IMG/VR virus record: IMGVR_UViG_3300042907_000479
Span: 1 to 21,508 of that record
Origin: a virus
DNA length: 21,508 nt
Strand: one strand, 5' to 3'
Shown: positions 2,778 through 19,363 of the stretch, one piece after another
Layout: the number at the start of each line of letters is the position of its first letter
Numbering within the stretch: the first letter of the stretch is position 1
Program-made: the position numbers and the translations under genes
The notes under the pieces: model-generated
Told to the model about the DNA's origin: nothing
The model's input: only the letters and a program-made list of their open reading frames with translations
Database searches by the model: none

Positions 2778-2812
2778 AAAAAAAAAGGGGTTAGGTATTA
2801 GCCCAACCCCTT
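2778..2812 (-). terminator. Rho-independent terminator after the major capsid gene
   Basis: On the minus strand AAGGGGTTGGG, a six-base loop, and CCTAACCCCTT form an 11-bp stem containing one G-U pair, and the run of T continues to nine (2778-2786). The U-tract follows only in the minus-strand direction, and the one mispair is a G-U wobble in minus-strand RNA but an A-C mismatch in plus-strand RNA, so it terminates minus-strand transcripts. It begins 18 bases past the capsid stop codon. It would set a high-level capsid transcript apart from the connector genes. Confidence 0.88.
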
Positions 2813-2830: not shown

Positions 2831-3919
2831 TTATCCTTCTGCACAAGCAGCCAAATCAGTACAAACTACTTCCAACGCTGCAAGTCCTTTTACTCCTTCA
2901 AAGTTGCTGCCAACTTGGTAAAGGTATGCTGGGGCTGTGTAGTATTGGTATGTTGCACGTATGTTGATGTTCCAATCATCACAAAGGCGTTGCATACGGT
3001 AGTCGAACTTCATGCCAGTAGCTGGATCGAAGATGGTATCTGCGATGTTGGAAGAATCCGACAACTTATTGAAGTCAGCTTCGTACAAGCTAAATCCAAC
3101 TGGAACGATAGAACCAAGACCAACGGCAAGGTTAGTAGCGTTAACCGATACCAAAGCATTGGCCAAATGACGGTCATAAACCGCGGCAAGACCGAAACGC
3201 TCGATAATTGCCATCAAGTCATATCCAAGTCCATCAGATGAACCACCAGCTATTGCCTTACGCAAGTAGCTTGCCAACTCATTCGCTCCAAAGATTGAAG
3301 CACCGTTAATACGGCTCATCAAAAGAGCGGTTTGAATTTGCTCAAACAAAGCAGAGTTAACAGGACGTGCATCCGTTCCGTTTGCCAAAGTGGTATTAAC
3401 CTGAAGAATGTTACCACTAAGGTTAGTTCCAAGAATATCACCAGTGTCCTTTGACCATCCACCGAATTGAGTAGCAGCAGCAAGGGCAAGGCGCTCACTT
3501 TCTTTCTCCTTAATTCCGTTTATAATCTTTTGAACTTTGCGGGCAACAAATGCGCTATTTTCTTCGCAAGTACCAACCAAATCGGAAGGGCTAACTGTGA
3601 AGTCCTTACCTACGTTCAAAGACGTGTCAAAGCTGTAAGTTTCAACAAAGTCGCATTCGGTGTGACTAGCCGCACAACCAGAAGTATTCTCGTTGATGTC
3701 GGAGGTTAGGAAGGGTTGGTCATAAACAATCTCGACCTGACGCACTTTAGACGCGCCTGTTAAGCCTTTGATTGTTGATGCTGAACGGTTACCCTCGCTC
3801 ATTACGTGGGTAAGGAATGGCAACGCAATGGGAGCCATATTGTTTTGATTAGCAAAAGCAGAATCCAAAGAGTTCTGTATTGCTGGGCAAGTTACGATTT
3901 CGCACAATGATTGTGACAT
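2831..3919 (-). CDS. Major capsid protein (probable)
   Basis: A 362-residue protein beginning MSQSLCEIV, the usual size for an HK97-fold capsid subunit. It follows a scaffold-like gene and is followed by a strong terminator, as expected for the most highly expressed virion gene. After an extended N-arm (residues 1-60) comes a long charged helix (about 125-150, KVQKIINGIKEKESERLALA), which resembles the spine helix of HK97-type subunits. A beta-rich body and an Asp/Tyr/Arg-rich segment (about 305-330) resembling the E-loop/P-domain end follow. Nine or so cysteines are present, including two near each terminus, unusual for a capsid protein. The gene has a 99-base leader without a Shine-Dalgarno sequence. 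The call rests on size, position and general fold-like pattern, not on a diagnostic motif. Confidence 0.75.
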   Translation of the reverse strand: MSQSLCEIVTCPAIQNSLDSAFANQNNMAPIALPFLTHVMSEGNRSASTIKGLTGASKVRQVEIVYDQPFLTSDINENTSGCAASHTECDFVETYSFDTSLNVGKDFTVSPSDLVGTCEENSAFVARKVQKIINGIKEKESERLALAAATQFGGWSKDTGDILGTNLSGNILQVNTTLANGTDARPVNSALFEQIQTALLMSRINGASIFGANELASYLRKAIAGGSSDGLGYDLMAIIERFGLAAVYDRHLANALVSVNATNLAVGLGSIVPVGFSLYEADFNKLSDSSNIADTIFDPATGMKFDYRMQRLCDDWNINIRATYQYYTAPAYLYQVGSNFEGVKGLAALEVVCTDLAACAEG

Positions 3920-7015: not shown

Positions 7016-8005
7016 TTAGCGTGTGCTTTCTTTGCCGTTTATCTCATCAGTCCAATGCTGGCACATTTCGATTATCATACTTTCAAAAGTGTATGTCGGT
7101 TGCCATCCTAATTCGCTCCGCAACTTTGTCGAATCGCCTTTCAAGTATGGCAGTTCCTCCGCACGTAAGTATTTCGGGTTAAGTGTTACATGATCGCGAT
7201 AATTCAAATCGAAGTAACTAAACGCCAACTCGCATAACTCGCGTACGGTGTGCGTTTCCATCATGCTGCATACGTAATCAGTCGGCTCGCTAAGTTGCAG
7301 CATGGCGTGCATCACTTTCACGTAGTCTTTAGCGTGACCCCAATCCCTACTTGCATCTAAGTTGCCCAACTCCAGTTTGTCCTGTTTGCCGTGTGCTATC
7401 ATTGCGGCAGCCTTGACTACCTTATTCGTTACAAAGTCAACACCTCTGCGCGGGCTTTCGTGGTTAAATAGAATCCCATTACTCAAGTGCATTCCGTAAG
7501 CCCTCCGATAATGGCGAACCACGTTGTAAGCGAATACCTTTGAGCAGCCGTAAGGGCTAACAGGATTGAGCGGTGTTGTTTCGCGTTGGTAGCCGTCCGC
7601 ATCACAACTAAGCCCAAACATTTCGCTGCTGCTTGCTTGGTACATCTTGGCATTCGGGCAAACCCTCCGCATCGATTCCAACAAGTTAATCACGCCAACG
7701 GCATCGGTTTGAACGGTAAATTGCGGCACGTCAAAAGAAATGCGTACGTGTGATTGTGCTGCTAAGTTGTAAACTTCATCGGGCTGTACGTCTGTTAATA
7801 TCCGCTCCAAACTTAACGGGTCGGTCATATCCCCGTAGTGCGTGTGGAATTTCGGGTTTGAGTAGCACAACTTTAACCGTTTAGATTCTTGCACGATGTT
7901 TGAACTTGCGCGAATCATGCCGTGTACTTCGTAGCCTAAGCTAAGAAGGTACTCCGAAAGATAGCTTCCATCCTGACCCGTTGCACCAGTTACAAATGCT
8001 TTCAT
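7016..8005 (-). CDS. gmd: GDP-mannose 4,6-dehydratase
   Basis: A short-chain dehydrogenase/reductase that converts GDP-D-mannose to GDP-4-keto-6-deoxy-D-mannose, the branch point to GDP-fucose, GDP-rhamnose and related deoxysugars. The NADP-binding Rossmann motif is GATGQDG at residues 7-13. The catalytic set is present: SSSEMFG at 125-131 with Glu128, and YGCSK with Tyr152 and Lys156. The family signatures NHESPRRG (181-188) and LGNLDASRDWGHAKDYV (213-229) mark it as Gmd rather than a generic epimerase. I chose the ATG at 8003-8005 (MKAFVTGATG, 329 residues) because it overlaps the FkbM stop as ATGA; an ATG at 8017 would add four residues. It is somewhat shorter than many bacterial Gmd enzymes (about 340-370). 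No reductase or epimerase partner (such as fcl or rmd) is in the window, so the host must finish the sugar or the keto sugar is used otherwise. Confidence 0.93.
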   Translation of the reverse strand: MKAFVTGATGQDGSYLSEYLLSLGYEVHGMIRASSNIVQESKRLKLCYSNPKFHTHYGDMTDPLSLERILTDVQPDEVYNLAAQSHVRISFDVPQFTVQTDAVGVINLLESMRRVCPNAKMYQASSSEMFGLSCDADGYQRETTPLNPVSPYGCSKVFAYNVVRHYRRAYGMHLSNGILFNHESPRRGVDFVTNKVVKAAAMIAHGKQDKLELGNLDASRDWGHAKDYVKVMHAMLQLSEPTDYVCSMMETHTVRELCELAFSYFDLNYRDHVTLNPKYLRAEELPYLKGDSTKLRSELGWQPTYTFESMIIEMCQHWTDEINGKESTR

Positions 8006-8676
8006 ATCGGAGTACAAATAATGTCCACTTGCGCCCCTTCCAATCCCTCATTTTTGTAAAGGTTGCGGTACTCATATCCCATAGAATCCAACAAGGCAAG
8101 CAAAGAAGCGCGGCTTTCACCTTGCCTTTCAAGTGCGGTTTCGTTCACCTCTATTAACATAGTAGGTGCGAATTTTTTAATGGTTAACGCTGCGCCTTTT
8201 AACGCTTTGACTTCCATACCCTCGCAATCCATCTTAATGAAGTCGCATTCGGGTAGGTTAATTGAATCTAATGAAACGCATTGGATATTGCCCTCTGCGA
8301 TGGCGTGAGTAGCCCCAGCGTTAATATCGTGGGCTAATCCTATGGTGTGTTTCTTGTCGCTTACCCCACGCTTAAAGCATACCGTGTTATCCTTGCCTTT
8401 CAAATTATACTCCAAACATTCAAAGGCTTTCGGGTTTGGCTCAAATGCGTAAACAGAACCACGCGACCCGACCCGATTAGAATAGGCAATGGTATGGTCA
8501 CCGATATAAGCCCCAATGTCAACTACCGTAAAGCCCCGATGGATAAATTCATCTAATAGCGGTAACGTGCTTCGGTCGTGGTCTAAGCGTTGGTTCTCAA
8601 TTACCCACTTGCTTATGTGAGTATCGTCCTCAATTAACGCTACTTTTTTACCGTTTGGAAATTCGTGTATAATCAT
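8002..8676 (-). CDS. FkbM family SAM-dependent methyltransferase
   Basis: A 224-residue enzyme of the FkbM type, which places methyl groups on hydroxyls of sugars and polyketides. The SAM-binding motif I is VVDIGAYIGDHT (residues 51-62), followed by AFEPNP (77-82) with the acidic residue that contacts the ribose, and by DFIKMDCEGME (145-155), the FkbM hallmark. The gene overlaps its neighbours by four bases on both sides (ATGA type), so it is translationally coupled to the upstream glycosyltransferase and the downstream dehydratase. The likely role is O-methylation of a sugar attached by the two transferases; the acceptor is not readable from sequence. FkbM genes are common in capsular and O-antigen loci and also occur in phages. 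Confidence 0.9.
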   Translation of the reverse strand: MIIHEFPNGKKVALIEDDTHISKWVIENQRLDHDRSTLPLLDEFIHRGFTVVDIGAYIGDHTIAYSNRVGSRGSVYAFEPNPKAFECLEYNLKGKDNTVCFKRGVSDKKHTIGLAHDINAGATHAIAEGNIQCVSLDSINLPECDFIKMDCEGMEVKALKGAALTIKKFAPTMLIEVNETALERQGESRASLLALLDSMGYEYRNLYKNEGLEGAQVDIICTPI

Positions 8677-9353
8677 TTGATTTGCGCTAAAACATCATTA
8701 GTAATCCCGCCCCAACTCCAAAACTGCATTGCCTTAATCTTTGGCATATCAGCCCCGTTGGTATCTTTGAATACGTAACCTTTCGGCTCATGCACTTCGG
8801 CAAATGCACCCATCACATTAAATTCCGAAAAGGAACGATAAGGAACGCGGCTTAGGTAAGTGAACAGCGGTAATTTATGAACTTCCTCTAAATACATACA
8901 TACGTTCTTTAGCGTCTTTGTGTGGTAAACTAAAGGCATCCTCCGCATATATTCCCACTCCACCATGTATTTCATCGCGGCTTCGGTTATCGGTTGCCAT
9001 GGGCAAGTAATTTCTGAATAACGTGTTTTCCAAATGATAGGTTTTCCATTCTCAAAATACTCGTTAACATCCAACGGTTCGATGGCAATTACATCGCTAT
9101 CCCAAAACACAACGGCATCGGCATCGGTATATTTCCATGCTTCCAACTTGGTCAGCTGCTGCCCAATGTAACCATCAGGAAGGTCAGGTACTTGAACTAC
9201 TCTTTCAGCGGTTAGGTGTTCCAATCCGCGCGGTTTTGGTGTGCAAATAACGATATTACGATAGCCCGTGACGTGCTTTTGAATAGATGCAAGGGCTAAG
9301 TGCAGCCACTCGTAATCTTTGGGATAAGTCCTTATTAGAATGTCTATTTGCAT
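8673..9353 (-). CDS. GT-A-like glycosyltransferase (DUF6492-like)
   Basis: A 226-residue protein starting MQIDILIRTYPKD, the form of the first strand of a GT-A nucleotide-diphosphosugar transferase. The metal-binding DxD motif is WDSDVIAI (residues 84-91). Before it stands GYIGQQLTKLEAWKY (61-75), whose Gln/Lys pattern is seen in DUF6492-type transferases. The C-terminal part has a conserved-looking SEFNVMGAFAE segment (about 175-185) that in this fold lies near the acceptor site. No membrane segment is present. It overlaps the first transferase by ten bases and the FkbM gene by four. Donor and acceptor sugars cannot be read; GDP-linked deoxymannose is suggested by the neighbouring Gmd. Confidence 0.75.
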   Translation of the reverse strand: MQIDILIRTYPKDYEWLHLALASIQKHVTGYRNIVICTPKPRGLEHLTAERVVQVPDLPDGYIGQQLTKLEAWKYTDADAVVFWDSDVIAIEPLDVNEYFENGKPIIWKTRYSEITCPWQPITEAAMKYMVEWEYMRRMPLVYHTKTLKNVCMYLEEVHKLPLFTYLSRVPYRSFSEFNVMGAFAEVHEPKGYVFKDTNGADMPKIKAMQFWSWGGITNDVLAQIK

Positions 9354-10027
9354 TTGGCTTGAATCAATCTAAACACCGTGTTGTTTATGTCCTGTGGCCG
9401 CCCTCTTTCTAAGTAGTTTTCCACCCAACTAAAGTGCCTTGTCATTCTGTGCCATTCATCAGCGTTGTATTGCACGGGATGGCGTTCGTGCATAAATATA
9501 GGGTCTTTGATTAGAAACAACTGCACGCGGCTCATAATGAAGCGATACGGTAGCCAATAATCCCACCATGTTTGCCCCATTGCAAATAGCGTGTGAGGTA
9601 TCAAATCGTAATAGTCGGAGTGAATAAAGAAAACGTCAAAGCCATTAGGGTATAACTTTTGGTCTTGAAAATCGCGGTTAAAATCCGTTCGGTTGCAAAA
9701 TACCAAACCTTGTTTGCATTTGCTGAAATACTCCGATACCGACCCGCGTAGAATAATGTCGCTATTGATTAGCATTATTGATTCAAACCCGTTATTCCTT
9801 GCGTGGTCTATAAACGAACTAATCAGAATATAAGGTGCTTTGTATAGCCCTTTTGTGGTTACCGTTACCTCGACAAACTCAATATCGTAGCGGTCTTTAA
9901 GTAGCGAAATTTCGCTGGCCGTATTCAAAGATATAACTCTGCAACCTTGCGCTTTCCAACTTTCAACTGCTTTTATTTGAGCATCACCAATCGCGTGGCG
10001 TGGTGAAATAGACGTTAGTGCAATCAT
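9344..10027 (-). CDS. Putative glycosyltransferase, first gene of the sugar cassette
   Basis: A 227-residue protein starting MIALTSISPRH. An Asn-Ser-Asp-Ile motif (LINSDIIL, 86-93) after a run of hydrophobic residues corresponds to the DxD position of GT-A transferases, with Asn for the first Asp. GFDVFFI (129-135) and GQTWWDYWLPYRF (151-163), followed by IFMHERHPVQYN (177-188), resemble conserved segments of uncharacterised viral transferases; a His-rich end such as this often lies at the acceptor or metal site. I am confident of the fold more than of activity, because of the Asn. It starts 18 bases after the MuF-like gene's stop, with a promoter-like box between, and overlaps the second transferase. 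Confidence 0.65.
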   Translation of the reverse strand: MIALTSISPRHAIGDAQIKAVESWKAQGCRVISLNTASEISLLKDRYDIEFVEVTVTTKGLYKAPYILISSFIDHARNNGFESIMLINSDIILRGSVSEYFSKCKQGLVFCNRTDFNRDFQDQKLYPNGFDVFFIHSDYYDLIPHTLFAMGQTWWDYWLPYRFIMSRVQLFLIKDPIFMHERHPVQYNADEWHRMTRHFSWVENYLERGRPQDINNTVFRLIQAKCK

Positions 10028-15139: not shown

Positions 15140-17753
15140 GTTTAGGTTGTCTACGGTCTAATTTAGCCGCTAACATTTTGAACCCAGCTACATCGGCTGC
15201 CCTGTGTCTATCCATTGCCGCGATAATGTTATGGTCTTTTAGATTGGCTGTTAACCCGTTAACCTCCGCACTCTTGCCCATGTCTGCGAATCCGCTTAAC
15301 ATCGCAGAATCCAACGCGGGCTTTACGTAATTACTTAGAATGTACTTTTCGGCAAGTCCTTTATTCATCGCTTCCAATAGCCCTTTGTGCTTGCTTGTTT
15401 CCTTAGCTGTGATAACGCTTTCACCTTTTGATAACTTGGCACTAATCGAATCGCTTGTTCCTGTACCTTCACCTTGCAAATCTACAACACCCTTAGCGAA
15501 TTGGGGCGGTTGCTGTGATGTGATAAACGCGATTTGTGCCGCGCCTAAAATACCCGCCAACGCTGCTAATATAGGGCCAACAATAGGGCCAGCAGTTAAC
15601 GCACTTGTAACCGCTAATGCCGTGTTTATTATTGCTTGGAATATAGCCGCCTGTTTGGCCGCATCATTTTGTTTGCTTAATAATTCCCTTTTTTCCTTGT
15701 CGTATTCCTGTTCTGAAATTAATCCTTGATTAAGCCGCTCATCTAAGTTTTGTAAATCTCTTTGATATCCCTCTTGTATGGATTGGCTAACCATTCCAAT
15801 TAACTGAATAGTAGTATTTGCAGCGGCTTCCCATATTTGCCGTTTTTCTTCCTCAGTTAATTCGGTTGCTTTAGTGGTTTCCTTATTAGCATCTAATTGA
15901 GTTTGTACCCAGTTTTCAAGTTCCCCCTTTTGCCATTCGTTGAACTCTTCATGCGCTTCCTTTTTACCATCAAGCATTTTGTTTTCAGCATCTAATTCTG
16001 CTGTTATCTTATTCATTAAAGCCTGACTTTCGGGTTCTTCATCGGGTATTAACGCTTCCGCAAACTTTGTCATCGCTTGCGCTTGTGTTAACTGCTTAAT
16101 CTTAGCTTCAATTTTGTCAAGTATCTTCCAAAATGTGCCACCACCGATTGCCGACTTTTCAAGTTGCTCTTTGAGTATCTTTAATTCATTTGATAGCGTT
16201 TCGATGTTGTTTATTCTAACCTCTGCACTACCATTTGCACCAGCCACATTATCAAGTGCAATTGCTAAGTTATTAACCGCGTCAACAGTTGGAGCGTTAT
16301 CACCTACGTCTGTTTGCCTATCTCTAAATTCCTTTAATGCCTCACGCGCAATAAGTAACTTATCGTAAAGTAGCTGGGTAACCGTTGCCTGTTGCTCTAC
16401 TTGTTTCCTGAAATATTCAGCATCTACTCCCTTTCCTTGTGTAGCCCGTAGGTCAGCAAGCGCAATGTTTGCATTCCTATATTGTTCCGCAATATCCTCA
16501 CCGCTTCTTAATATACCAAGCCCCGACATACCAAGTAACGATTCCTTGTATTCATCAAGTGATAGTTTACCCTGTACAAATTGCTCATTCGATTCGGCCA
16601 TTGCATCCGCTTGACCGCGTATCATTTCAGATAAAGCCCTAACCGCTTTCTCCGCTTCCTCCGTACTAATTAACTGCAACACCAAACCCTCCCATGCGCT
16701 TGACAATTCATCCACCGCGCCCTTAAAGTTGTCTTGCATAATGTCAGCCATAACCTTTGCCGAGCCAGCCGCGCCATCTAATGCCGTCTTTAATTCTTGC
16801 ACCGTGTCAATTCCCTTAATCAAAGAAAGGAATGCAGCCTTTGACCTTTCATCGGTTAATTCGGTGGCAGCCGTTAGGTCTATATTACCGCCTTCAAGTT
16901 GCTTAAACGCTCTGAATAGGTCGTTTGAGTTTTTAACCGTAAATCCTAATTCCTGTGATAGTACACTACTGGTATCAGATAGTTTTGATAGTAGGTTTTT
17001 TAAGCCCGTTCCCGCTATCGAACCCTTTAGGCCAACGTCAGAAAGTCGGGCTAATAATGCGGTAGTTGTTTCAAGGTCGATGTTTGCAGCCGCAGCGATA
17101 GGTGCGACAAGTTTCATAGATTCTCTAAAGTCCTCAATATCCAATGCTGACTTTGAGAACGCCAAAGCCATAACGTCAGCAACCCGCCCCGCTTCGCTCG
17201 CATCCAATCCAAAACCGCGAATAGTTGAACCCGCTACACTTGCCGCATCGCTTAGAGTAGTGCCAGCGGCAGCAGCAAGGGCAAGAGTTCCATCGGTTGC
17301 CGCTAATATCTCTTTCGTGGTAAAACCTAACTTACCGAACTCTTCTTGAAGTTGTCCTACTTCGGTTGCTGTGAACTTAGTGCTTGCCCCTAATGCTTTC
17401 GCTGAATTATTAAGCGCATACATTTCTTTTGCAGTCGCACCAGTTACCGCCTTAACCTTTGACATTTGCGCCTCAAAGTTGGTAGTGATTCCGATAGCGT
17501 TACGCATGATGGAAACAAAGCCCGCAATGCCAGCCGTAATACCAAACGCTCCAGCTATTGTGCTACCTAAATTGGCAAACTTTGAGCCAAGACCTTGTAC
17601 GCTTGAACCTATATTATTAACCGCTGCCGACCCTTTTGCGCCCGCCTTTTCGAGTTTAGATTCTAAAAATAGTACGCGGTTAGAAAGGTCTGTTAGGCTT
17701 TTACTTGCGTTATCTACATCAACCCTATACTTTGCTACTATTTCGTCTGCCAT
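15123..17753 (-). CDS. Tail tape measure protein
   Basis: An 876-residue protein, the longest gene in the window. Residues about 90-290 are a TP901-1/PhageMin_Tail-type domain (STKFTATEVGQLQEEFGKLGFT, and GLKGSIAGTGLKNLL near 230-245). Residues 300-680 are charged, helical and coiled-coil-like. A hydrophobic, Ala/Gly/Ile-rich segment at about 699-745 would cross a membrane, as expected for a protein that leads DNA injection. After it comes FAKGVVDLQGEGTGTSDSI and a short C-terminal part, a common end of tape measures. At the usual ~1.5 angstrom per residue, it implies a tail on the order of 130 nm. Start ATG overlaps the -1 frame chaperone ORF by 29 bases, as in most siphophages. Confidence 0.93.
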   Translation of the reverse strand: MADEIVAKYRVDVDNASKSLTDLSNRVLFLESKLEKAGAKGSAAVNNIGSSVQGLGSKFANLGSTIAGAFGITAGIAGFVSIMRNAIGITTNFEAQMSKVKAVTGATAKEMYALNNSAKALGASTKFTATEVGQLQEEFGKLGFTTKEILAATDGTLALAAAAGTTLSDAASVAGSTIRGFGLDASEAGRVADVMALAFSKSALDIEDFRESMKLVAPIAAAANIDLETTTALLARLSDVGLKGSIAGTGLKNLLSKLSDTSSVLSQELGFTVKNSNDLFRAFKQLEGGNIDLTAATELTDERSKAAFLSLIKGIDTVQELKTALDGAAGSAKVMADIMQDNFKGAVDELSSAWEGLVLQLISTEEAEKAVRALSEMIRGQADAMAESNEQFVQGKLSLDEYKESLLGMSGLGILRSGEDIAEQYRNANIALADLRATQGKGVDAEYFRKQVEQQATVTQLLYDKLLIAREALKEFRDRQTDVGDNAPTVDAVNNLAIALDNVAGANGSAEVRINNIETLSNELKILKEQLEKSAIGGGTFWKILDKIEAKIKQLTQAQAMTKFAEALIPDEEPESQALMNKITAELDAENKMLDGKKEAHEEFNEWQKGELENWVQTQLDANKETTKATELTEEEKRQIWEAAANTTIQLIGMVSQSIQEGYQRDLQNLDERLNQGLISEQEYDKEKRELLSKQNDAAKQAAIFQAIINTALAVTSALTAGPIVGPILAALAGILGAAQIAFITSQQPPQFAKGVVDLQGEGTGTSDSISAKLSKGESVITAKETSKHKGLLEAMNKGLAEKYILSNYVKPALDSAMLSGFADMGKSAEVNGLTANLKDHNIIAAMDRHRAADVAGFKMLAAKLDRRQPKRGGYA

Positions 17754-18062
17754 CTTTCGCCTGTTTAATCTCGCTTAACCGCGATTCCACAAAGGTAAAC
17801 AATTCCAAAAGGAAGTCGGAACGCCCCATATCCCGTAGCCTTGCGAACCCGTCCGAATCCTTGCCCATAAAGCGAAGGAATCGCGTCCACTCAAGCCGTT
17901 GCTTGCTTATTCGTTGGTGGGCTGCTCTGAACGTAAAATCGACCACCTTCTTTTCAGATTTTCGCTTACCAGTTGAAAGTTTCTCGATAAGGTCGTTGCA
18001 TCTTGCTTGGAAACCGTTAGCCCGCTCAGTAATTTGATGAACATGGGCAGTCGAAAAAAAAA
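17725..18062 (-). CDS. -1 frame extension of the tail assembly chaperone (T-like part of a G-GT pair)
   Basis: In the -1 frame relative to the chaperone gene, the sequence is open from a TGA seven codons before the T9 run at 18054-18062 through to the stop at 17725, so the open stretch begins almost exactly at the slippery run. If ribosomes slip there, 156 residues of the zero frame join 109 residues of this frame, giving about 265 residues. It has no ATG in its first part; the only start is a GTG at 17946, which would give a 73-residue protein. The product is Lys/Arg/Phe-rich (TFRAAHQRISKQRLEWTRF). It ends inside the tape measure gene. This is how gpG and gpGT of lambda-like tails are organised, although no sequence match is claimed. 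Confidence 0.75.
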
Positions 18063-18521
18063 GCGACCTTCCTCCGTTTCATGCTTAAGGTAGTCGCACT
18101 TTTCAGCATGGATGGACGCGCTAATCTTTGACACGTCCTCGTCTTCGCGCACGTAGTTGATGGCGATAATGTTCACCAAAGCATCCAAGTTCACGATCTT
18201 CTTTTCAAGGTCGGTCAGGTCGTTAATTACCACGCCAGCTTTGATAATGTCCTGTTTGGCAAGGCATACGGTAATCGTTTCAAGTGCTTGCTTCCACGTT
18301 TCAGAACTTAACCCCGCTGCCATGTATTGTAGGTGCGTGTGGGCTTCGGATAGGCGTGTGATAGGGACATCACCCTCGTCACGAAATGAGTAATACCACC
18401 GTCCTTTGTCATCTTTGAACTCGGCTACCATTCCACTACGCACGTTGGTAGCTTGGTTAGCCCTATGCCAATCGCTTAGACGTTGCGCCCCAAAAAGTAG
18501 GTTTGCTAATTTGATACCCAT
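17907..18521 (-). CDS. Tail assembly chaperone (G-like)
   Basis: A 204-residue protein immediately before the tape measure gene, overlapping the membrane-protein gene by 16 bases. It is charged and mostly helical in the middle (residues 60-135). Residues 154-156 are Phe-Phe-Phe, encoded by nine consecutive T. The zero frame continues 48 residues after the run and ends at a TAA at 17907. Tail assembly chaperones coat the tape measure protein during tail assembly and are made as a short form and a frameshifted long form; position and frame arrangement give the call, since chaperone sequences diverge greatly. It has no known domain that I recognise. Confidence 0.7.
   Translation of the reverse strand: MGIKLANLLFGAQRLSDWHRANQATNVRSGMVAEFKDDKGRWYYSFRDEGDVPITRLSEAHTHLQYMAAGLSSETWKQALETITVCLAKQDIIKAGVVINDLTDLEKKIVNLDALVNIIAINYVREDEDVSKISASIHAEKCDYLKHETEEGRFFFRLPMFIKLLSGLTVSKQDATTLSRNFQLVSENLKRRWSILRSEQPTNE
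18054..18075 (-). promoter_or_regulatory. Candidate programmed -1 ribosomal frameshift site
   Basis: On the minus strand GGAGGAAGG, then TCGC, then nine T. The T run, in the zero frame as TTT TTT TTT, allows P- and A-site tRNA-Phe re-pairing in the -1 frame. GGAGG eight bases before the run is a Shine-Dalgarno-like sequence, which in known -1 sites such as dnaX stimulates slippage by pairing with 16S rRNA. Such a strong match is otherwise rare before the gene starts in this window. The -1 frame is closed just upstream and open downstream. Confidence 0.72.
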
Positions 18522-18793
18522 TTGTTAAGTAGTGTGTTTAGAAATGCAACGGATAGAACGGTAACAGGCCAAAGGTATAGTTCGCCACCTAAGTAAAAGT
18601 GTCCAATCGTACCCCAAACCGAAGCCATGCAAGTAGGGCAATACCAAAGCGGCTTGGATAGCTTTTGGTGCAGCTTGCTTAGTGATAGGTAAAAGTTCTC
18701 AGGCAGCCCGTAGAATGTGAAGATTAGTTCCATTGTAGCCAAGTGAAAGCCAACGGAAACTAAGGACGTAAGAATGATTATTCCTAATTGCAT
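18506..18793 (-). CDS. Small membrane protein with a CPTC motif
   Basis: A 95-residue protein with hydrophobic segments at about residues 3-28 and 66-90, and a third, weaker one near 55-65. The motif YCPTCMASVWG (about 51-61) resembles the Cys-x-x-Cys and Trp segment of small membrane proteins of the DUF1360 type. It lies within the tail region, overlapping the chaperone gene by 16 bases. Its role is unknown; host membrane contact, superinfection exclusion or lysis support would all fit, but none is shown. Confidence 0.55.
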   Translation of the reverse strand: MQLGIIILTSLVSVGFHLATMELIFTFYGLPENFYLSLSKLHQKLSKPLWYCPTCMASVWGTIGHFYLGGELYLWPVTVLSVAFLNTLLNKWVSN

Positions 18794-19125
18794 ACGGTCA
18801 ACACATTAGCAGCACCCGTAACTATTCCACTTGCGCCCTGTACTAAGCCAAACTCAACTATTGCACACGTTAATCCCGTCCACGTGTGTGATGCGCTTAC
18901 CTTGTACCGAACGCCCGCCACGAATGAAGGTAACGCGGCTGCAAGTATTGTGAGGTTACCCGCGTTTGTGCTTGTTTGGGTAACGGTACTAACGCTTCCA
19001 TCCGCAAGTGATTCAAAGGTTAGCGTTACCGATGTGCTGACTGGAAACGTACCGAAATTAACGGACGCAAGGCACAAATTCATTCGTTCAGTTTCGGAGC
19101 AACCTCCGCAATTATAGCAGCTCAT
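18784..19125 (-). CDS. Cysteine-rich small virion-type protein
   Basis: A 113-residue protein beginning MSCYNCGGCSETE, with three cysteines spaced CxxCxxC in the first nine residues, further single cysteines and one at the last-but-one position. The rest is Thr/Ser/Ala/Val-rich, alternating as in a beta sandwich. It overlaps neighbours by 10-14 bases. A virion accessory or decoration role is a guess. It is too small for a typical major tail protein, though that gene is otherwise missing from the window. Confidence 0.5.
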   Translation of the reverse strand: MSCYNCGGCSETERMNLCLASVNFGTFPVSTSVTLTFESLADGSVSTVTQTSTNAGNLTILAAALPSFVAGVRYKVSASHTWTGLTCAIVEFGLVQGASGIVTGAANVLTVCN

Positions 19126-19363
19126 TTTGTTTCTTTTTGTAGTATTTGATTACATAGGCAAGGAATGTAGCAAGTTCGCAGTATGGGTCAATTCCTAATT
19201 CCTGTGCCATTGGTAAGTCTAATTCAATTCGCACTTGCTCACATATCGGTAACTCCTTAGTCACGATATAACCCAATCGATAACTAACGCCCTCCAACTG
19301 CTTTATGAACTCCGCATCTTTTACGCGCTTATCAATTATGCGTTCTTGTTCAGTCTTCATCAT
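19112..19363 (-). CDS. Small hypothetical helical protein
   Basis: An 83-residue charged protein, with a predicted helical N-terminal half (TEQERIIDKRVKDAEFIKQL) and a basic C-terminal helix (FLAYVIKYYKKKQNELL). It overlaps both neighbours by 14 bases. A second ATG at residue 2 is equally possible as start. I recognise no family. Being between the terminase-small-like gene and virion genes it may be a packaging or assembly accessory. Confidence 0.55.
   Translation of the reverse strand: MMKTEQERIIDKRVKDAEFIKQLEGVSYRLGYIVTKELPICEQVRIELDLPMAQELGIDPYCELATFLAYVIKYYKKKQNELL

Follow-up and report, generated by a model that had tools for sequence, protein, structure and literature searches.

As a short gene that directly precedes the tail tape measure protein (TMP) gene in a stretch of viral DNA contains an uninterrupted run of nine T, the question arises whether this gene is translated in two ways. 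A sequence-only reading of the window (i.e., the whole 21,508-nucleotide stretch of DNA analyzed here) had proposed that the gene encodes a tail chaperone with a programmed -1 frameshift at the T9 run and an upstream Shine-Dalgarno (SD)-like stimulator. Our analyses indicate that two products are very likely translated from the gene, owing to a -1 slip on the T run; for the complete model, in which ribosomes would slip on T_TTT_TTT and thereby produce tail-chaperone forms of 204 and 265 amino acids, we estimate a probability of approx. 84%.

The features of the locus are listed in Table 1. The T9 run, its reading as Phe154-156, the TGA seven codons upstream, the 109 open codons and the GGAGG were all found where the sequence-only reading had placed them, and its lengths for the two forms (204 and 265 amino acids) were reproduced as well; the predicted long, GT-like form comprises 156 + 109 = 265 amino acids, with the predicted junction peptide FFFSTAHVHQITER. 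The TMP gene was matched by both Pfam (PF10145, E = 3.8e-36) and PHROG (phrog_1533, E = 1e-65), and its start, at position 17753, is overlapped over 29 nt by the -1-frame extension. Given the base composition, approx. 0.1 T9 runs would be expected per strand of the window. The only other T9 on the coding strand (2778-2786, minus strand) forms the T-tract in a hairpin that resembles an intrinsic terminator (2778-2811, minus strand; GGGGTTGGGC...CCTAACCCC-T9) and that follows the gene for the probable major capsid protein (2831-3919).

Table 1. Features of the candidate frameshift locus in the window
Feature	Position	Strand	Observation
Zero-frame gene, predicted short (G-like) form, 204 amino acids	17907..18521	-	Kept in 32 relatives
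Putative slippery heptamer T_TTT_TTT, inside the T9 run	18054..18060	-	In-phase U_UUU_UUY in 33/33 sequences
T9 run, Phe154-156, phase 0	18054-18062	-	Reading of the zero frame
-1-frame extension, 109 codons + TAG	17725..18053	-	Open in 33/33 sequences; third-position bias
TAG ending the -1 frame	17725-17727	-	109 codons past the T9 run
Probable dual-coding overlap, 48 codons (relatives: 41-62)	17907..18053	-	Frame comparisons
TGA that ends the -1 reading frame before the heptamer	18079..18081	-	Seventh -1 codon upstream
SD-like GGAGG, 8 nt upstream of the T9 run, 10 nt upstream of the heptamer; lost in close relatives	18071..18075	-	
Decoy GTG start codon of a seemingly separate ORF of 73 amino acids	17944..17946	-	Without SD
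Tail tape measure protein (TMP) gene, 876 amino acids	15123..17753	-	PF10145, phrog_1533

We propose that translation of positions 17907-18521 would normally yield a short, G-like tail assembly chaperone, while a few ribosomes, with tRNA-Phe in both the P and the A site on T_TTT_TTT (codons 155-156), would slip back by one base. The slipped pair of tRNA-Phe would re-pair perfectly, and the -1 frame would then be read for 109 codons to give the GT-like long form. If lambda is a guide, many copies of the short form and few copies of the long form may coat the TMP, and the extension may recruit the tail-tube protein. The site is most simply explained by two tRNA-Phe slipping in tandem on U_UUU_UUU; we infer both the identity of the slipping machine (the ribosome rather than RNA polymerase) and the efficiency of the slip. 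Under nested folding, no RNA structure was found downstream of the heptamer, either as an unusually stable fold (z-scores from -0.90 to +1.35 among 14 members) or as a consensus structure among the relatives, and an Rfam search of the window gave no match.

To place the site in an evolutionary context, we compared the window with 32 relatives (n = 33 sequences; protein identity from 99% down to 17%), which were collected by widening searches from IMG/VR and from one Bacteroidota MAG; of two scans of genome contigs, the first yielded no relative and the second yielded this MAG. Among named phages, tblastn searches with the short form and with one of the relatives (L066) found no relative. The MAG copy (L102, 8747-9181) retains both frames and the heptamer, as T_TTT_TTC. 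The 430 bases between this copy and the end of its contig contain no TMP gene, and host-like genes lie upstream; this locus may perhaps be what is left of a prophage, or a module that has been rearranged.

An in-phase U_UUU_UUY heptamer was present in all 33 sequences, and the -1 frame was open for 94 to 122 codons after it in every case, which strongly supports the proposed frameshift just ahead of the TMP gene. In none of the 32 homologues was the run disrupted, were the two frames merged by indels, or did the downstream frame have a clear independent start. In 32 of the 33 sequences, the end of the -1 frame lay close to where a long ORF (442 to 947 amino acids) begins, the exception being the L102 contig, which lacks such an ORF; in the window and 31 relatives the long ORF started between -90 and +44 nt from the -1 stop. 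The TMP domain PF10145 was detected in the window, L012, L016 and L018, as well as in L066, where the match was below the curated cut-off.

We assessed whether the -1 frame could be open by chance by synonymously recoding the zero frame with local codon usage. The probability of an open -1 frame ranged from 0.0005 to 0.145 per sequence among 22 representatives (0.016 for the window); these sequences are not independent of each other, but the major lineages all agree. Moreover, past the zero-frame stop, differences between close relatives fell predominantly at the third position of -1 codons (15/0/55 and 8/2/34 for first, second and third positions, respectively). Within the overlap, all 12 pairs compared showed more residue identity in the -1 frame than the average predicted when synonymous changes are relocated, with P values (0.0025 to 0.35 for each pair) that are modest when taken singly. 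As the zero frame was likewise constrained there in most comparisons, the overlap of 41 to 62 codons is probably dual-coding.

The designation "tail chaperone" is one that we infer from the position of the gene, which lies directly upstream of the TMP gene in the window and 31 relatives, and from the two-form architecture, rather than from sequence or fold homology. Known tail assembly chaperone families are themselves highly diverged. Searches of Pfam, PHROG and PDB sequences and a Foldseek/BFVD fold search gave no convincing match for the family; phrog_38593 matched one member (E = 0.0026), and a match to 5isw (E = 0.0028) was rejected as an unrelated enzyme. AlphaFold modeled the short form as mostly helical with a small beta hairpin (pLDDT 79) and the extension as helical (pLDDT 80), and neither model had a significant match to a known fold. 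A search for the major tail protein gene found no Pfam or PHROG match for the upstream genes at 18506-19363. Immediately before the chaperone gene lies a small membrane-protein-like gene (18506-18793, minus strand) with the motif C-x-x-C-M-A-S-V-W-G; a neighbor bearing the same motif precedes the chaperone gene in L102 (7411-7743, plus strand) and thus represents a conserved neighbor.

The host is probably a member of the Bacteroidota, as judged from the nearest named relatives of the TMP (phages of Flavobacterium, Cellulophaga and Bacteroides), the MAG match and the SD-less gene starts. Elsewhere in the window, between structural genes, a block at 7016-10027 (minus strand) reads by eye as nucleotide-sugar and glycosyl/methyl-transferase genes, including one (7016-8017, minus strand) that by eye resembles a GDP-mannose 4,6-dehydratase-type epimerase.

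One possible refinement of ribosomal slippage is that the slip requires GGAGG as a dnaX-like SD stimulator, as the sequence-only reading had suggested. Within the window, GGAGG and the heptamer lie 10 nt apart, and predicted anti-SD pairing is strong in the window, L002, L006 and L008-L010 (dG -9.5) as well as in L012-L015 (dG -11.2 to -12.1). In one further clade (L065-L071 and L077) all eight members carry a G-rich motif, located 9 to 13 nt upstream of the heptamer, with dG values of -7.6 to -12.1 (P = 0.065 to 0.26 each against synonymous recoding); the persistence of this motif despite changes in the encoded residues (KEG, KDG, QGG, TGG, RGV, MEG, EGG) is no more than suggestive. On the other hand, pairing is absent or weak in nine relatives (L005, L007, L011, L016, L017, L035, L038, L064 and L102), in which the native pairing is equaled or surpassed by 87 to 100% of synonymous recodings (P = 0.87 to 1.0). 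The GGAGG itself is gone in L011 and also in L005 and L007, even though the latter two share 94 to 96% protein identity with the window. GGAGG is also abundant, with 31 copies on the same strand of the window, and an SD was found at just one of the window's gene starts, an uncertain TTG. Moreover, Bacteroidia ribosomes do not recognize SDs, as their anti-SD is sequestered (PMC9976891). Taken together, weak pairing in nine relatives and SD-blind ribosomes do not support an SD stimulator in general, and we reject it as a family-wide feature; a slip that depends on GGAGG appears unlikely.

Across the family the pattern of SD pairing looks two-sided, with a motif kept in one clade and pairing worse than in most synonymous recodings in much of the rest, and a role specific to one lineage would be an option. 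The still less likely combination, in which an internal SD stimulates the slip in the window phage and one lineage despite anti-SD sequestration and both overlap-encoded tails are functional, would, if true, mean that SD pairing is still open to ribosomes that are elongating, modified by the phage or poor in bS21.

Next in standing is slippage of RNA polymerase rather than of the ribosome; if the polymerase added one U or dropped two on the T9 run, some mRNAs would encode the long form, to be made by ordinary translation. Known cases involve A/T runs of approx. 8 or more, and homopolymers of 8 or more bases are the usual setting (PMC3711429), and the T run is long enough in most members; T9 is kept exactly in 23 of the 33 sequences, in two different phases. 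A homopolymer of approx. 8 or more was, however, found in 31 of 33 sequences rather than in all, as the run is T8 in eight members, T7 in L078 and T6C in L102; the latter two retain the in-phase heptamer although their runs are too short for typical polymerase slippage. The sites read CGC TTT TTT TTT CGN in the window clade (in L017 and L035 the run is followed by CAA), TCT TTT TTT TTG in L018 and L037, AGT TTT TTT TTG in L038, GAT TTT TTT TAY in L065-L071 and L077, TCT TTT TTT GTG in L078 and GAT TTT TTC GTT in L102, with two overlapping heptamer registers in L064 and L079. Comparison of the 33 sites thus indicates that the encoded residues (FFF, SFFL or DFFY) set the length and phase of the run while the heptamer stays constant. 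The proposal that the T9 run is the slip signal therefore holds for the heptamer within it, whereas nine Ts as such are not the conserved unit.

Transcriptional slippage does not require a phase, and the heptamer, as the sole constant part of a varying T run, favors tandem slippage on the ribosome over slippage of RNA polymerase. Moreover, a -1-frame stop directly abuts the heptamer in L038, L069 and L071, so that the shift must happen within the heptamer. We regard polymerase slippage as improbable but retain a small weight for it, because the evidence against it comes from two sequences and the contig of one of these, L102, lacks a downstream TMP gene; it may possibly act as a partner mechanism in members with T9.

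Ribosomal slippage also has to be set against readings without any recoding. One of these is that the downstream frame is a separate gene that starts at the GTG (17944-17946); gene callers would pick this codon, which occurs in the window clade, L016 and L017. The sequence-only reading had warned that this GTG would mislead automatic annotation, and the codon proved to be absent from 20 relatives (L012-L015, L018, L035, L037, L038, L064-L071, L077-L079 and L102). It had also taken the GTG for the sole start in the -1 frame; it is the first after the run, but in-frame ATG, TTG and GTG codons follow further downstream. The GTG lacks an SD and a conserved context, and the conserved -1 frame stays open between the heptamer and this position in all 33 sequences. 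As the GTG is missing outside the window clade and two relatives, we conclude that the downstream frame does not form a gene of its own and assign hardly any probability to this explanation. Even less probable is a sequencing or assembly indel that split one gene in two; homopolymers are error-prone, but this is refuted by an identical frame relation in 33 independent assemblies with runs of T6C, T7, T8 and T9, and by the conservation of the zero-frame tail itself.

The lambda slippery site is G_GGA_AAG, as opposed to U_UUU_UUU here. The window system resembles lambda gpG/gpGT (PMC5009743) in that a gene directly before the TMP gene gives a short form and a -1 long form, the extension ends at the TMP start and there is no clear stimulatory structure; it differs in that no sequence or fold homology to the window family was detectable and in that the lambda zero frame stops soon after the site while 41 to 62 more codons follow here. 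In its working, the window system appears even more like the P2 E/E' type, with which it shares a T-run site of varying length, the -1 direction, an extension overlapping the next gene and a decoy ORF that begins at GUG and lacks a ribosome binding site (PMC3931495). P2-like relatives such as Smp131 have slip sites of T6G, T7G and T7C (PMC3931495). Conversely, the P2 type belongs to myophages of Gammaproteobacteria with unrelated proteins, and E' reaches back just 37 nt into E (PMC3931495), as compared to an overlap of approx. 125 to 190 nt here.

The nearest named relatives of the TMP, in Flavobacterium phage hattifnatt9-1 and Cellulophaga phage Nekkels_1 (48% and 36% identity in the TMP core, respectively), likewise have a gene of 186 to 192 amino acids directly before the TMP gene; unlike in the window, this gene shows no such run with an overlapping -1 ORF, and tblastn with the window chaperone found no match in either phage. 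Escherichia coli dnaX uses a -1 frameshift with an SD stimulator. The window shares with dnaX a homopolymer-like heptamer and, together with one distant clade, an SD-like sequence approx. 10 nt upstream; it differs in that the SD is not conserved, no downstream stem-loop was found and the probable host has ribosomes that do not use SDs.

Overall, comparative sequence data make it very likely that this locus represents a programmed -1 frameshift of the lambda G/GT and P2 E/E' type in a previously undescribed family of putative chaperones. The phage trick is known; this case stands apart by its unrelated proteins, its probable Bacteroidota host and the length of its probably dual-coding overlap. 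A search of the open-access literature turned up no chaperone frameshift reported for phages of Bacteroidota, although such absence is weak evidence. A putative tail-chaperone family without a convincing Pfam, PHROGs, PDB or BFVD match was thus found through its recoding signal, which suggests a rule for annotation, i.e., to seek an in-phase U_UUU_UUY before the TMP gene and to distrust the GTG ORF. The family also offers natural test cases for whether the ribosomes of Bacteroidota, which make no use of SDs, can carry out -1 frameshifting, and for the evolution of two protein tails from one stretch of DNA.
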